Shown: in pieces, positions 9,412 through 23,484 of the stretch
How the letters are laid out: each line of letters starts with the position of its first letter
Numbering within the stretch: the first letter of the stretch is position 1
Assembly (NCBI RefSeq): GCF_007289895.1
Contig: NZ_CP041660.1
Span: 248,001-312,000, forward strand
Direction: 5' to 3'
Source: Catenovulum sediminis
GTDB lineage: Bacteria > Pseudomonadota > Gammaproteobacteria > Enterobacterales > Alteromonadaceae
DNA: 64,000 bases
The notes under the pieces: generated by a model
Databases searched by the model: none
The model's input: only the letters and a program-made list of their open reading frames with translations
Told to the model about the DNA's origin: nothing
Program-made: the position numbers and the translations under genes

Positions 9412-11127
9412 TTACCTAAGTACTGCGTTTAAACCTGTGGGTGTACCTGTTTTAACAAATTCATGTACATTCACCGCAGGCTCTAACATGGCTTGCCGGC
9501 CCCAAATGTAACTCTGTTCTTCAACAATCACTTTATAGGCTTTGTTTAATGCCATCGCGCGCTGAAGATCCGGCTCTAGCAAAATACTGATATCCCGATT
9601 AAGCTCAGTTATAGCTTGCTGATTTAACACGCCATCTTGCGTGTAAAATTTATCATAAACCTGCTGGTTACTGCGAAACTCATCACCCCAGCGATTGTGC
9701 TGTAAATAAGTGGTGTATTCATAACGACCATCTGCCATTTTCGGCTCTGGTGTGCCTTTAAACCCTTTTTCAGACCAGTGATACCAGCCGTTTTTAAAAT
9801 GATTGTTGGCAAACTTTCTAGGCAGCGCAAAACTACCATCGGTTGTTGCACTGGTACCTGAATGGCAACCGATACAAAATGCCGTTTCTTCGTAGGTTTG
9901 TGGTCTGAGTTGCCCTTGAGCATCTTCGATAAAACCCTGCAATTTCCAGCCCATTCCAGAGTACAAACCGCGCTCACTATCGCCTTTAAAGGTTCTTAAA
10001 CGCTCTGGAAAATCGTGTTTTTCTTTTATCTCGCTCAGCGCATAATTACTTAATTGTGCATAATTATTCCAGCTAATCTTCTTGCTATAGCGTACCTCTT
10101 TAATGCGCGCCGACATTTGCATCTCACCGCGTTCATTGCTATCTAAATAACGTACTGTATGTAAAAACTCAGTGCCATTTGGATACAAACCCGCTGCCAT
10201 GTTAATCTTGCCTTGCTGAAATAAAAGACGCGCCTGCCCTACATAAGACATCAGTTTATTTTCTTTTGGCGCCCAGTCGTATACGATCTGTGTTGCGATA
10301 TTTAACTGACCGTCTTTATTTAAATCAACTTGGTATTGTTGTTCGTCAACCGCACTAATATCGATGGCTTGCTCTTTTATCATACTTTCCACTATGGCCA
10401 AGTTCAGACGATAAACATTCTGATCAAATTCACCTTGTTCGTTATGTCTAAATGCTTCAGGCAAACGAATCAGCACATCATCGGTCGAACCATTGGTTGG
10501 GAAAAATGCTCCCGCAAACGGCGCATAGGCAAACACCCGCCAACCGGTAAACTCACCTTGCAAATTTCTATCAAACCCCAGTTCATCAAAATTAAAATAG
10601 ACATCTGGCATAAAGCCATTCCACTTGCCATCTTTATTAACATCCCATTGTTCAGGTAATTGTTGTAACTGGCGGGCAAGTATAATTTCACCATTTTTAT
10701 CCAGATAATTTGAAACTTTTACATAATCGCGTATTTGTTGATCAGATATTTTCGATATTTGCGGTGAAAAATCACGAAACAAATTTTTCCAACGGTTGGT
10801 TTGCGTATATTCAGCCGTAAAGCCGTACTCTAATTGTAAATCAGTATCATTGAAAAAATTTGGCCGTTTACCATTTGCATGGCAAACAAAACACGGATTA
10901 TGCCCCTGCCCGCTTTCGTCTTGTGTTTTGGTATAACATTGCGGTGGTATGTAAGCCGCTTCGTTGTACATGGTTTTGGCGCGCGCAAAAGTTTGTTTAC
11001 CTAAAGCAGCTTCTAACATTTGCGTGATTTGTGTTTGTTCACTGTTTTTTTTATCTGCTGGCTCACATCCGGTTAAACCGAGTAACACGATAAAAGTGAG
11101 CGGCAATAAGCATAAAAATCGATTCAT
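9412..11127 (-). CDS. Lipoprotein with two c-type heme motifs (CxxCH)
   Basis: 571 residues. The N-terminus MNRFLCLLPLTFIVLLGLTGC is a lipoprotein signal with lipobox LTGC, so the protein should be anchored by its lipidated cysteine. Two heme-attachment motifs are seen: CFVCH near residue 75 and CIGCH near residue 420. Two short acidic stretches, DVNKDGKWNG and DLNKDGQLN, look like EF-hand or dockerin-type calcium loops. I cannot name the family. It may be a diheme redox protein. It is the third gene of the minus-strand cluster between dnaB and alr but follows a terminator, so it likely has its own promoter in 11128-11200. Confidence 0.7.
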   Translation of the reverse strand: MNRFLCLLPLTFIVLLGLTGCEPADKKNSEQTQITQMLEAALGKQTFARAKTMYNEAAYIPPQCYTKTQDESGQGHNPCFVCHANGKRPNFFNDTDLQLEYGFTAEYTQTNRWKNLFRDFSPQISKISDQQIRDYVKVSNYLDKNGEIILARQLQQLPEQWDVNKDGKWNGFMPDVYFNFDELGFDRNLQGEFTGWRVFAYAPFAGAFFPTNGSTDDVLIRLPEAFRHNEQGEFDQNVYRLNLAIVESMIKEQAIDISAVDEQQYQVDLNKDGQLNIATQIVYDWAPKENKLMSYVGQARLLFQQGKINMAAGLYPNGTEFLHTVRYLDSNERGEMQMSARIKEVRYSKKISWNNYAQLSNYALSEIKEKHDFPERLRTFKGDSERGLYSGMGWKLQGFIEDAQGQLRPQTYEETAFCIGCHSGTSATTDGSFALPRKFANNHFKNGWYHWSEKGFKGTPEPKMADGRYEYTTYLQHNRWGDEFRSNQQVYDKFYTQDGVLNQQAITELNRDISILLEPDLQRAMALNKAYKVIVEEQSYIWGRQAMLEPAVNVHEFVKTGTPTGLNAVLR

Positions 11128-19440: not shown

Positions 19441-20073
19441 ATGGGCGTAAAGCTAGAAGTTAATTCAGTACTCTGTACCGAGCAAAAATATGAGTTAAAA
19501 GTGGGTAAACTTTACCCGTTTAATATCCCCGGTAACCGCTTTTTTTCTAACGAAACCCCTATTTGGTTAACCAACCTCAACTGGTTGCCGCTTGCAGAAA
19601 TTAGCATCATTTCACAAACACTTGAAAACAACGGTTTAACTGGCCGCTTTAGAGTAGATTATTTATATCAAGGTGACGAACAGCAAACTTTAGCCAACAT
19701 TTTTAGCCGTATGTATGTTGGTTTAAATGATCCTTTCATCTATTTGATAGCGAGTGAAGCAGAGTATCAAGCAAGCCAAATAAGTGGCCAAATTATCAGA
19801 GACAGTTTGCAAGCAGAAGGGTTTATTCACGCTTCACCTAAAAGCCAGCTAAACCGTGTAGCAAATAAGTTTTATAAAAATACCCAATCACCCCTTATAT
19901 TAGTGGTAGACAAAACAAAAATAACCTCCCCAGTAAAATGGGAGCCAGCGAAAGGCGGTTTATACCCGCACATATACGGGCCGTTAAATATTGATGCGGT
20001 TGTAAAAACAGAAGCAATCGCGCTTAACGAGTCTGGCGAATTTTTCATTGATGCACATAGCAGGATCCTCTAA
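19441..20073 (+). CDS. Two-domain protein: DUF2584-like N-terminus and DUF952 C-terminus
   Basis: 210 residues. The C-terminal half (about 120-205) has FIHASPKSQLNRVANKFY, LILVVDKTKI, KWEPAKGGLYPHIYGPLN, typical of DUF952, a small fold related to ADP-ribosyl cyclase-like or glutathione S-transferase-adjacent proteins of unknown role. The first 100 residues (MGVKLEVNSVLCTEQ, LYPFNIPGNRFF, ISQTLENNGLTGRFRVDYLYQG) resemble DUF2584 from memory. The stop TAA overlaps the next ATG by one base (TAATG at 20071), so translation with the oxidoreductase is coupled. Function unknown. Confidence 0.65.
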   Translation: MGVKLEVNSVLCTEQKYELKVGKLYPFNIPGNRFFSNETPIWLTNLNWLPLAEISIISQTLENNGLTGRFRVDYLYQGDEQQTLANIFSRMYVGLNDPFIYLIASEAEYQASQISGQIIRDSLQAEGFIHASPKSQLNRVANKFYKNTQSPLILVVDKTKITSPVKWEPAKGGLYPHIYGPLNIDAVVKTEAIALNESGEFFIDAHSRIL

Positions 20074-21110
20074 TGTCATATTCCCCGATAAAAACAGCCA
20101 TAGTAGGCTATGGCTTTTCAGCCAAAACCTTTCATTTGCCATTTATTACAACCCTACCAGAACTATCGCTTTGCGCGATTAGTAGCAGCCAGCAACAGTT
20201 AGTGACGACCGAACAACCGCAAGCCAAGTATTTTGCCAGTGCCGAAGCTATGCTAGAACAAAGTGATGCCGAGCTGGTGATAATAACGGCCCCCAATAAT
20301 GTGCATTTTAAACTGGCCAAATTAGCGCTTGAAAACGGCAAACACGTTATTGTAGAAAAACCCTTTGTGCTAGATGTGGCAGACGGTGAAACACTGGTTA
20401 AACTGGCAAAAGATAAAGGTTTAAAACTCAGTGTATTTCATAACCGCAGATGGGATGGCGATTTTTTAACGATACAAAAATTAATTGCCGACCATAAAAT
20501 TGGTGAAATTAAACATTTTGAAGCGCATTTTGATCGTTTTCGTCCAACCGTACGTGACAGATGGCGTGAACAATCAACCGAAGGAGGTGGCATTTTATTT
20601 GATTTAGGCCCGCATTTGCTTGATCAGGCATTGCAGTTATTTGGTAAACCCACTGCAATAACCGCCCAGTGCCGCAGCATGCGACCTAACTCTAAAAATG
20701 TCGACTATTTTAATATTATGCTGCACTACCCTGATTTTTACGCCCAATTACATGCCAATTTGTACAGCTGCGAACCCAACATTCGGTTTAATATTTTGGG
20801 CAGCGAAGGCAAATATCAAAAATTTGGTCTAGACCCACAAGAAGATTATTTAAAAGCCGGCATTATGCCAGATAAAGCCGAATGGGCAGACGAAACGCCA
20901 GAAATGTACGGCACCGTGTATAAAGAAGGACAAGCCGCAGAAGTAATACAAACCGAACGCGGCGGCTACCAACACTACTTTAAAACCATGGCCGACGCCA
21001 TCCGTTTAAATAAAAACGAACCGGTAACCGCCGAGCAAGCACTGGAAAATATAAAACTAATAGAACTTGCCATAAAAAGCAGCGAACAAGGCAAAACCTT
21101 AACCGTATAA
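20073..21110 (+). CDS. Gfo/Idh/MocA-family NAD(P)-dependent oxidoreductase
   Basis: 345 residues. N-terminal Rossmann fold with TAIVGYGFSAKTFHLPFI (about 8-26). EKPF, the conserved catalytic lysine motif, appears in VIVEKPFVLD near residue 95, and GGGILFDLGPHLLDQAL near residue 170 holds the family's conserved histidine. It resembles E. coli YdgJ, so a sugar or polyol is the likely substrate. Coupled by one-base overlap to the DUF952 gene. It ends directly before the repeat-rich stretch. Confidence 0.85.
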   Translation: MSYSPIKTAIVGYGFSAKTFHLPFITTLPELSLCAISSSQQQLVTTEQPQAKYFASAEAMLEQSDAELVIITAPNNVHFKLAKLALENGKHVIVEKPFVLDVADGETLVKLAKDKGLKLSVFHNRRWDGDFLTIQKLIADHKIGEIKHFEAHFDRFRPTVRDRWREQSTEGGGILFDLGPHLLDQALQLFGKPTAITAQCRSMRPNSKNVDYFNIMLHYPDFYAQLHANLYSCEPNIRFNILGSEGKYQKFGLDPQEDYLKAGIMPDKAEWADETPEMYGTVYKEGQAAEVIQTERGGYQHYFKTMADAIRLNKNEPVTAEQALENIKLIELAIKSSEQGKTLTV

Positions 21111-21182: not shown

Positions 21183-21370
21183 AACTTGAAACTCGAACCT
21201 TAAAACTTGAAACTCGAAACTTGAAATTCGCCACTCGAAACTCGAAACTCGAAACTCGAAACTTGAAACTTGAAACTCGAAACTCGAAACTTGAAACTCG
21301 AAACTCGAAACTCGAAACTTGAAACTCGTAACTTGAAACTCAAAACTCAAAACTCGTAACTTGAAACTCG
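21183..21370. repeat. Heptamer tandem array 1 (GAAACTY)
   Basis: About 27 head-to-tail copies of GAAACTC or GAAACTT with a few variants. It begins with GAACCTTAAAACTTGAAAC-type sequence and ends in ACTCGTACCTAAAATG, running straight into a hairpin element. C and T alternate irregularly at position 7. Confidence 0.9.
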
Positions 21371-21407
21371 TACCTAAAATGTAGGTCGCGGCTTCAGCCC
21401 GACAAAA
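21371..21407. repeat. Hairpin element, copy 2
   Basis: TACCTAAAATGTAGG then GTCGCGGC-TTCA-GCCCGAC and AAAA. The arms pair over seven bases with one bulged C around a TTCA loop. The same sequence recurs at 21854-21891, and a degenerate copy lies at 21133-21170. It resembles REP-like intergenic palindromes of marine gammaproteobacteria. Confidence 0.8.
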
Positions 21408-21573
21408 TCTCCCAACAAACACCCATTCCTACAACCTCAGCCTCATAACTTGAAACTTATAACTCGCTACTCTAATCTCATCGCCCGCTGCTCGCTGCTC
21501 TCAACTCAACCCCCGTTCACGTTAATATTCATTTATCACACAGACACGCGTAAATATATCCCTATAGCTTTAC

Positions 21574-21591: not shown

Positions 21592-21658
21592 AAAGTCTGC
21601 TTAGATAAACTGAACATCAACCCTCACTCAAATCCTGCACACTTGCACTTAAAACATA

Positions 21659-21853
21659 CAACTCGAACCTTAAAACTTAAAACTCGAAACTCGTAACTTG
21701 AAACTCGAAACTTGAAACTTGAAACTTGAAACTTGAAACTTGAAACTCGAAACTTGAAACTTGAAACTTGAAACTCGAAACTTGAAACTTGAAACTTGAA
21801 ACTTGAAACTTGAAACTCGAAACTTGAAACTTGAAACTTGAAACTTGAAATTC
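21659..21853. repeat. Heptamer tandem array 2 (GAAACTY)
   Basis: About 27 copies, mostly GAAACTT with GAAACTC at intervals. It opens with AACTCGAACCTTAAAACTT and closes with TTCGTACCTAAAATG, the same boundaries as array 1. The composite unit (array plus hairpin) is thus present twice, about 480 bp apart, in the same orientation. Confidence 0.9.
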
Positions 21854-21891
21854 GTACCTAAAATGTAGGTCGCGGCTTCAGCCCGACAAAA
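21854..21891. repeat. Hairpin element, copy 3
   Basis: Identical to copy 2 through the stem (GTAGGTCGCGGCTTCAGCC core) and again directly abutting the end of a heptamer array. Confidence 0.8.
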
Positions 21892-21951
21892 CAAGTGTCG
21901 CTAAAATCTGACAGCGCACACTCTAATTATGGACTGCGCCTAAACTAAACA

Positions 21952-21979
21952 TTTCTAAGCTGCCTGTGCGGCAGTGAAC
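21952..21979 (-). CRISPR. Solitary type I-F CRISPR repeat, no array and no cas genes
   Basis: Read on the minus strand, these 28 nt start GTTCACTGCC, have the palindromic core CTGCCGCACAGGCAG and end CTTAGAAA. Length, hairpin and both ends equal the type I-F (Cas6f-processed) repeat as I remember it from Vibrio, Shewanella and enterobacteria. The usual 32-nt spacing reveals no second good copy on either side. At 21919-21892 a 28-nt window keeps 7 of the first 10 repeat bases, which is weak. So this is one isolated repeat, either a relic or a repurposed unit. Confidence 0.6.
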
Positions 21980-22095
21980 CCAATAATGCAATTATTAATA
22001 CGCCTTTTTAGAATTGGCTGCGTGAAAAAACACCAGCAACAACATTAACTTAATTTAAATATTAAATTTACATTATGAACTTTTACAAACAAGTG

Positions 22096-22112
22096 GTATA
22101 CATAATGTATAC
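22096..22112. promoter_or_regulatory. 17-bp perfect palindrome, candidate operator for the HD-GYP-like gene
   Basis: GTATACAT-A-ATGTATAC is perfectly symmetric and ends 34 nt before the GTG start. TTTACA at 22082-22087 could be the -35 box, with the -10 box falling within the palindrome, a usual place for repressor binding. The regulator is unknown. Confidence 0.55.
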
Positions 22113-22146
22113 TTTTCTCAGAGCTATTTAGAGGTACTCTGATATC

Positions 22147-23484
22147 GTGACAAAAAATTTAGAATCGTCTGATTTACACCAACATTACGCGACACACTTA
22201 GGGAATGTCACTAAAGATAATCAGATTATTGCTACGGGGGATATACGCAACACTGCGGGCGTGCTCGTTGCGGCCAAAAATACGCGAATTAACCAACAAA
22301 TCGCTGAAAAAATAGCGCGCCATAAACTGTTGATCCCTTTAGAGCAACAAATTGCCCTAGAAAAAACCTGTAAAGTTGAGCAAGAGCTCTTTGCATTGCC
22401 GTCTCACCCTGAGGTGAAAGTTTTGATTGAAAACGGTGTTGGTGTCGAGCAATTCCAAAATCACGGCAAGGCGCTAAAGTACTATCCGTTGTTATTACAA
22501 AAATTAACGGTGCTGAAAGCAAGCTATCCTGAAATATATAAAAAAGCGGTAATGGGTGCATACGTTGCGCTGTTGATCAGTTTAGAACGCAATTTAGATG
22601 TTAAAACAAGCAGTAATATATTTATCGCAACCTTGGTACGTGATATTGGTCTGTTACATATCGAGCCTAAAATTGTTATGGGCACTGGTGTTTTATCTGC
22701 CCAAGACTGGTTAATGTTACAAGGCCATGTGTCGATAGGTTATCACTATGTAAGGTTAGAAAATAATATTCCAAACGTGATCCCTAGGGCGATTTTTGAG
22801 CATCATGAAAGGTGCGATGGTTTTGGTTACCCTAAGCAAAAATTTGAGCATCAGTTGTCTTTAGAAGGGCAAGTGGTTGCTTTTGCCGACAGCTTTATAG
22901 GGATGTTTTATAAATATATTTTCGCTTTAAAATACCCGTTTAAGGCGCTGTTACCGATAATGCAGTTTAACGCTGGTGCACATGGTATAGAAAATACCGA
23001 TGCGTGCATTCGCTTATTTGGTAAGTTGGTTAAGTCTTATAAGCGTATTCACAGTAACCAAGAGTTAGCTGTTTTGTCGGCTAAAATTCCGCTACGCCAT
23101 AAACATATTAACGAGTGGTTTGTGCAAGCTGAAATACTCAATGCGGGCCTGTCTTCGGTCTATTCTGGGGCCGCAATAGTACGTTCTACTGAGCGGATTA
23201 GTTGGTTAAGACGTTTGCTGACACGTTCTGGTATTGACGATAACCGTTTTGTTAATTGGCTTAAAGAAGTTGATTTTCAATCAATATCAGACAAGGAGGT
23301 AGAAGAAATTGAGCAATATGCACTGATGTTAAATGAAATGTCTTGGCATCTAAATGAGCTACGTAAAGTTTTTTCTTTAATCATCACTCATTTACAAGGG
23401 CCTGAGGAACAAGTGTCAGAATACAAAGATATATATAGGATCTTAAAAGCGATGATGGGACATTTTAAAGCGGATTTACTCTAG
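22147..23484 (+). CDS. HD-GYP-like protein with degenerate HD motif (RDIG)
   Basis: 445 residues from a GTG start with AGAGGT 10 nt upstream. The C-terminal part carries EHHERCDGFGYP near residue 220, the GYP signature of c-di-GMP phosphodiesterases of the HD-GYP type. The HD position reads ATLVRDIGLLHIE, so the metal-binding His is Arg and the following Lys is Leu. The N-terminal 100 residues (DIRNTAGVLVAAKNTRINQ) look like the DUF3391-like/PliZ region often ahead of HD-GYP domains. There is a helical C-terminal extension. Inferred: a c-di-GMP binding or weakly active protein rather than a normal phosphodiesterase. Confidence 0.75.
   Translation: MTKNLESSDLHQHYATHLGNVTKDNQIIATGDIRNTAGVLVAAKNTRINQQIAEKIARHKLLIPLEQQIALEKTCKVEQELFALPSHPEVKVLIENGVGVEQFQNHGKALKYYPLLLQKLTVLKASYPEIYKKAVMGAYVALLISLERNLDVKTSSNIFIATLVRDIGLLHIEPKIVMGTGVLSAQDWLMLQGHVSIGYHYVRLENNIPNVIPRAIFEHHERCDGFGYPKQKFEHQLSLEGQVVAFADSFIGMFYKYIFALKYPFKALLPIMQFNAGAHGIENTDACIRLFGKLVKSYKRIHSNQELAVLSAKIPLRHKHINEWFVQAEILNAGLSSVYSGAAIVRSTERISWLRRLLTRSGIDDNRFVNWLKEVDFQSISDKEVEEIEQYALMLNEMSWHLNELRKVFSLIITHLQGPEEQVSEYKDIYRILKAMMGHFKADLL

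Follow-up and report, generated by a model that had tools for sequence, protein, structure and literature searches.

Type I-F CRISPR repeats that stand alone have been described in mobile elements and, as a remnant, in E. coli. The sections of PMC10651486 that deal with the former define solitary repeat units (SRUs) and describe RacrIF1, which acts on Cas6f and Cas7f; according to the same sections, SRUs are located in mobile elements, in many cases with a predicted promoter immediately upstream, and approximately 90% of the prophages and viruses that bear them infect hosts with CRISPR-Cas systems. The repeat that we analyze here, from Catenovulum sediminis (Alteromonadaceae), resembles the SRUs and RacrIF1 of phages in being a single intergenic I-F repeat without cas genes, but we found no mobile element, predicted promoter or CRISPR-Cas host to go with it.

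In E. coli, the I-F remnant is located between clpA and infA, and the loss of the I-F cas genes is recounted in the portion of PMC8616872 concerned with it. Using the 161-nt region of one strain (L297, from a record labelled plasmid) as a megablast query, we observed a match in 5347 of 5426 complete genomes, with 4746 covering at least 80% of the region and 3183 of these 4746 doing so at only 80-90% identity, figures that count the region and not the repeats. The E. coli remnant resembles our locus, as we interpret the latter, in being an I-F repeat left between housekeeping genes after cas loss, and 27 of its 28 bases agree with ours, but it comes with a 32-nt spacer and a second, degenerate repeat, and ours has neither. 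Two further comparisons come from the same family. The I-F locus of the congener G001 also shares 27 of 28 repeat bases, but it has a cas operon, a leader and 51 repeats, none of which accompanies our repeat. In G263, there is, as here, one perfect 28-mer with no leader detected and no Cas7f found, although G263 keeps a cas1 fragment that shows the origin of its repeat and our locus does not. Among the matches listed from the open literature, judged by titles and abstract openings, no paper interprets a lone I-F repeat on a chromosome as a relic.

Our analysis indicates that the repeat is probably the inert relic of a lost I-F locus. The window, i.e., the whole stretch of DNA that was analyzed (64,000 nucleotides, G000:C1:248001-312000), is part of a genome of 4.87 Mb in 2 contigs with a completeness of 100, and contains the following features:

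20073-21110, plus strand: Gfo/Idh/MocA oxidoreductase gene, flanking (Pfam PF02894, PF22725, PF01408).
21183-21370, no strand assigned: 7-bp tandem repeat AACTCGA, approximately 27 copies, in the same intergenic region as the CRISPR repeat.
21660-21850, no strand assigned: 7-bp tandem repeat AACTTGA, approximately 27 copies, in the same intergenic region.
21854-21892, with a second copy at 21370-21408, no strand assigned: short palindromic sequence, found by eye, its core motif at two sites in the window.
21920-21951, minus strand: 32 nt at the spacer position, with no second repeat after it and no convincing target.
21952-21979, minus strand: solitary type I-F CRISPR repeat, 28 nt (Rfam CRISPR-DR4; stem CTGCC/GGCAG, loop GCACA).
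21980-22146, minus strand: leader position, intergenic and upstream of the divergent HD-domain gene; no I-F leader detected (profile score -3.1 bits).
22147-23484, plus strand: HD-domain (HD_5) gene, flanking (Pfam PF13487).

The initial annotation had described an isolated type I-F repeat with a CTGCC/GGCAG stem, and this is confirmed. Read on the minus strand (21979-21952), the sequence is GTTCACTGCCGCACAGGCAGCTTAGAAA; it matches CRISPR-DR4 (RF01317) over model positions 1-28 of 28 with a score of 50.1 bits (cut-off, 35 bits; E = 7.9e-9), which identifies it as a type I-F repeat, and it is the only Rfam match above the gathering threshold in the window. The caveat raised at the outset, that the 28 nt might differ at several bases from any I-F repeat, does not apply, as they are identical at 28 of 28 positions to the repeats of arrays in many genomes. 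The stem is perfect and the fold is -8.6 kcal/mol, equalled by 6 of 200 shuffles, while the folding of the 60-nt unit of repeat plus putative guide does not exceed that of shuffles (52 of 200 as good). No further copy with up to three mismatches is present in the whole window (0 of 100 shuffles contained one), and no second or degenerate repeat was found within 300 nt on each side, where the best 28-nt match is 14/28, a value reached by 77 of 100 shuffles. With a single match in the genome and no degenerate second copy, this is not a CRISPR array, i.e., two or more repeats at a spacing of approximately 60 nt; by our own test, rather than SRUFinder, it does have the form of an SRU, being solitary, intergenic and free of any partial repeat within 100 bp.

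The repeat is located within a 1.04-kb intergenic region between the oxidoreductase gene and the HD-domain gene, 167 bp upstream of the start codon of the latter. In the same region, the two 7-bp tandem arrays are each followed by the same short palindrome. The window contains 41 ORFs that are 110 aa or longer, of which 31 were scanned with Pfam and 10 with PHROGs. Thirty of the 31 belong to ordinary chromosomal Pfam families (the exception, 9412-11127, has none), and 4 of the 10 have PHROGs matches, to a transcriptional regulator, an S-adenosylmethionine decarboxylase and two families of unknown function, one of these last two ORFs being an EAL/GGDEF protein by Pfam. Neither scan detected transposase, integrase or phage-structural families, and ARAGORN detected no tRNA in the window; as judged from the 31 of 41 ORFs scanned with Pfam, the repeat is not located in a phage, prophage or plasmid. 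Its flanks have no match in phage or plasmid records, and their best match among the loci that we fetched has an E-value of 0.18.

The initial annotation also saw no cas gene nearby, in agreement with our finding that the proteins of the six-gene I-F cas operon of G001 give no tblastn match in the window at E <= 1. The genes of this operon carry names that we presume from their order, except for Cas6f, which was identified with Pfam. A search of the whole genome for cas genes and for arrays of the same repeat, which had been suggested as a check, extends this result for Cas6f, Cas1 and Cas7f. The window repeat is the only RF01317 match across the 4.87 Mb, and there are no matches to Cas6f (PF09618), using a search that recovers the Cas6f of G001; to Cas1 (PF01867), using a search that recovers Cas1 in 9 of 14 control genomes; or to Cas7f, using the Cas7f of G001 as a query that recovers its own gene.

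Among the eight genomes of the genus, two contain Cas6f. In G001, it is part of a full I-F-type cas operon with a leader and 51 RF01317 matches. In G005, it is accompanied, over the 5 kb that we read, by short repeats that have diverged strongly, a system that we take from its appearance to be a Tn7-like I-F3 system; an origin of the window repeat from such a transposon was considered and rejected, since the repeats of G005 are far from it in sequence. Across the family, RF01317 matches at E <= 1e-4 are present in 55 of 295 genomes, 52 of them above the cut-off, in a survey with strict filters and 24 candidates scored per genome, so that weak matches may escape and the counts per genome are minima. 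Exactly one match was found in seven genomes (G000, the genome under study, and G034, G067, G120, G182, G217 and G263), and the latter six still had one each when rechecked with 150 candidates. One of the seven, G182, contains Cas7f and has its repeat at a contig end; the matches of G034 (32.5 bits) and G217 (31.4 bits) are below the cut-off, and inspection by eye suggests that a second, degenerate copy may be present in G067 and G034. A single repeat above the cut-off without Cas7f thus occurs in 4 of 295 family genomes (G000, G067, G120 and G263), and the concern that the palindrome might be common at intergenic sites in genomes without I-F systems is not borne out. In G263, the only RF01317 match (L254, C1 4400579-4400606) is a perfect repeat located 4 nt after codons 1-134 of a truncated I-F cas1 that is 85% identical to cas1 of G001; we found no Cas7f in this genome and detected no leader at the repeat, which is a deletion scar of an I-F locus.

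Examination of the flanking genes in the genus demonstrated that SpeD, DUF3802 and an aminotransferase occur together in all eight species, with no HD gene within 1.5 kb of them in the other seven; in these seven, the HD gene has only weak matches and no homologue at E <= 1e-30. Homologues of the oxidoreductase are present in six of the seven (47-54% identity, with uncertain orthology) and are located on a different contig from SpeD or 0.5 Mb away from it, and the only other match to a neighbor of the window repeat in the stretches around them is a 33% identical IclR-type protein in G004. Since the two sides of the locus do not occur side by side in the other seven species, the genus offers no comparable site. 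The neighbors of the window repeat were also not found beside I-F repeats in the 246 other loci that we fetched, where the only match is a distant Gfo/Idh homologue (29% identity) at L134.

Among GTDB genomes, the exact 28-mer is present in at least 118 stretches, of which 90 contain more than three repeat-like copies and 28 contain three or fewer, with 15 of these 28 containing one, counting copies with up to nine mismatches. Leaders were analyzed with a profile built on 110 nt upstream of 42 arrays, with the stretches of 42 others held out; all 84 were taken mechanically and some are not true leaders. Of the held-out stretches, 29 of 42 scored 12.7-55.6 bits and the other 13 scored 5.0 or less or were unreported, and the best of 90 controls (30 shuffles and 60 random window pieces) scored 1.7. 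With this profile, the 150 nt upstream of the window repeat scored -3.1 bits, inside the control range, i.e., the leader of an array was not detected, and a diverged leader is still conceivable because the sensitivity of the profile is only 29/42. Seven of 19 solitary-repeat loci scored at least 15.7 bits and the other 12 had no reported match above the controls. Among the 15 single-copy stretches, seven are leader-positive (L148, L161, L191, L227, L160, L181 and L217); in L160, L181 and L217, the contig begins with the repeat, and these three may be cut arrays.

The other eight are leader-negative (L146, L155, L167, L201, L214, L219, L221 and L224), and in four of these (L146, L167, L201 and L224) the repeat is no more than approximately 220 nt from the end of the stretch examined. 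L201 and L214 have a degenerate copy (15/28 and 17/28, respectively) exactly 60 nt upstream and are decayed arrays. The leaderless single repeats are located beside genes encoding an S1-domain protein and SpoU in L155, glycerol-3-phosphate dehydrogenase and SecB in L201, and an Rnf/Nqr subunit and UvrB in L221; the families of the nearest ORFs are ornithine cyclodeaminase in L146, Fic in L214, an NAD-binding oxidoreductase and UvrB in L219, and Cas1 and Cas5 in L224. In a further stretch, L190, there is a 20/28 copy at +49, and its three scanned ORFs have no Pfam family and one weak PHROGs match of unknown function.

The initial annotation offered several readings of the repeat, and the best supported of these is the relic of an array. 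An RNA anti-CRISPR (Racr) would be an SRU left by a mobile element, with a short transcript that would be bound and cut by Cas6f and would nucleate a useless Cas7f filament. The repeat has the sequence and hairpin of a Cas6f substrate and is intergenic, solitary and undecayed, and the exact 28-mer occurs in 16 viral stretches; in two of these, the viral contigs L089 and L094, a single copy is located in the interior next to terminase and RusA-like genes, as expected of SRUs. These points must be set against the absence of mobile-element families from the 31 Pfam-scanned and 10 PHROGs-scanned ORFs, the flanks without phage or plasmid matches, and a simple consensus scan of 21600-22300 that found no sigma-70-like promoter, with 1.8 expected in shuffles (one weak site resembling a terminator was found on the minus strand at 21916-21899, with 0.5 expected). 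In addition, the SRU carriers covered by the relevant sections of PMC10651486 mostly infect CRISPR-Cas hosts, whereas Cas1, Cas6f and Cas7f were not found here. A Racr-like unit or Cas6f decoy, as originally proposed, thus gained no positive support from mobile-element families, promoter or cognate Cas, and we consider the Racr reading unlikely. The palindrome could instead be kept as an ordinary DNA or RNA hairpin upstream of the HD gene (an operator, an mRNA hairpin or a processing site) that is now unrelated to CRISPR, as its distance of 167 bp from the start codon, its perfect stem and its undecayed sequence would allow. This is also doubtful, in that agreement with the I-F repeat extends beyond the stem to the loop, the 5′ end (GTTCA) and the 3′ tail (CTTAGAAA), and no repeat with up to seven mismatches is present within approximately 1.5 kb on either side of the 11 family HD homologues that we fetched.

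Two further readings are less probable still. In a one-repeat mini-CRISPR, the 32 nt at 21951-21920 would direct an I-F complex that enters the cell, perhaps serving as an anti-cas guardian in the manner of the E. coli orphan arrays. Bases 1-20 of this putative guide have an exact match in one viral contig (L293), in an apparent DNA polymerase gene by eye. The match ends at base 20, with 3 of the 12 remaining bases in agreement, and is preceded by GG rather than the CC expected of an I-F PAM; one chance 20-mer is unsurprising in so large a collection, and we rejected L293 as a target. The guide has no target in its own genome or in seven congeners, where only the repeat has matches elsewhere, no match in phage or plasmid records, and none in the fetched loci, many of which contain cas genes (best E 0.8). 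With repeat and guide together as the query, there was no match among phage records, and the 24 plasmid records that matched each covered less than 80% of it. Guide bases 13-32 have no viral match, and neither do the 24 nt that precede the repeat, which we considered as a potential last spacer. The 32-nt flank, which the first reading proposed to compare with genomic and phage sequences, thus has no convincing target, and its suggestion of a repurposed guide found no positive support, with no cognate Cas found either. With no second repeat and no leader detected in addition, the mini-CRISPR is highly improbable. We also regard as very unlikely a host-owned chromosomal RNA decoy, in which the perfect repeat, transcribed from a non-standard promoter, would poison I-F Cas complexes arriving on plasmids or transposons, i.e., a guardian without a spacer; if transcribed and active, the window repeat would be a host-borne CRISPR blocker.

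The relic is the simplest reading, because I-F repeats are frequent in the family, no Cas1, Cas6f or Cas7f was found, and G263 shows such a scar. An ancestor, or an acquired DNA segment, would have possessed a type I-F CRISPR-Cas locus such as is frequent in Alteromonadaceae, and deletion and rearrangement would have taken the cas genes, the leader and the other repeats, so that a single 28-bp repeat remained in an intergenic region rich in repeats. With neither Cas6f nor Cas7f found in the cell, this repeat should do nothing, while any transcript would still form the Cas6f-binding hairpin. The leaderless, perfect single repeats beside housekeeping genes (L155, L201 and L221) and the E. coli remnant support the relic, as do the occurrence of the exact 28-mer mostly in multi-repeat stretches (90 of the at least 118 listed), the full locus of G001, the ordinary chromosomal families of the window ORFs, and the fact that the two sides of the locus do not occur together elsewhere in the genus. 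Several observations argue against it. A neutral 28-mer should change, and this one is undecayed at 28 of 28 positions, which means that either the loss was recent or the repeat has been retained for a reason; no cas fragment, leader, trailer or degenerate repeat is located beside it, unlike in G263, L201 and L214; and its neighbors are absent from beside the I-F repeats of the 246 other fetched loci. We infer the deletion event itself, together with the former presence of a full I-F locus here and the lack of a present function for the repeat. A perfect, leaderless, solitary I-F repeat can be the remnant of a lost I-F locus, of which G263 is one such scar, and searches for RNA anti-CRISPRs therefore need mobile-element context and a promoter as well.

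Our survey also identified other unusual single repeats. In the viral contigs L093 and L094, a two-repeat mini-array (2425-2513) and a single repeat (position 233), respectively, are flanked by near-identical direct repeats of approximately 25-30 nt, as if inserted, as seen by eye. The conjugative IncC plasmid pKAZ1 (L296) contains one I-F repeat at 1501-1528 with one mismatch and no second copy in 3 kb, and is a candidate plasmid SRU. Single I-F repeats are also present just past apparent arrays of other types in L219 (position 491), L224 (position 122) and L272 (position 1501); we take these arrays to be I-C or I-E from the look of their repeat sequences.

The single repeat of L272 is the head of an element of approximately 135 bp, which begins with an I-F repeat whose last bases are changed, followed by a conserved GAAGTGAGGTCATGG motif. 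Copies are present in L059 (15487-15780), L129, L135, L143, L162, L163, L205, L259 and L272; they are located within I-F arrays, or at their ends, in Pseudoalteromonas, a Shewanella and Alteromonadaceae, and after an apparent I-C array in G217. One copy searched against Rfam gave no match beyond the repeat heads, and searches of plasmids, phages and, with an exact 26-mer, viral contigs gave none. We rejected this element as the origin of the window repeat, as the window does not contain its downstream sequence.

Elsewhere in the window, a giant protein of 7723 aa (34635-57806, minus strand) contains 62 LapA-domain stretches and a von Willebrand A domain, and is underlain by a 318-bp tandem repeat in 53 copies. 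It adjoins ABC, HlyD, outer-membrane efflux, OmpA, C93 peptidase and LapD-type EAL/GGDEF genes (26058-57806, minus strand), and this region probably encodes a Lap-type adhesin with its secretion and release genes.
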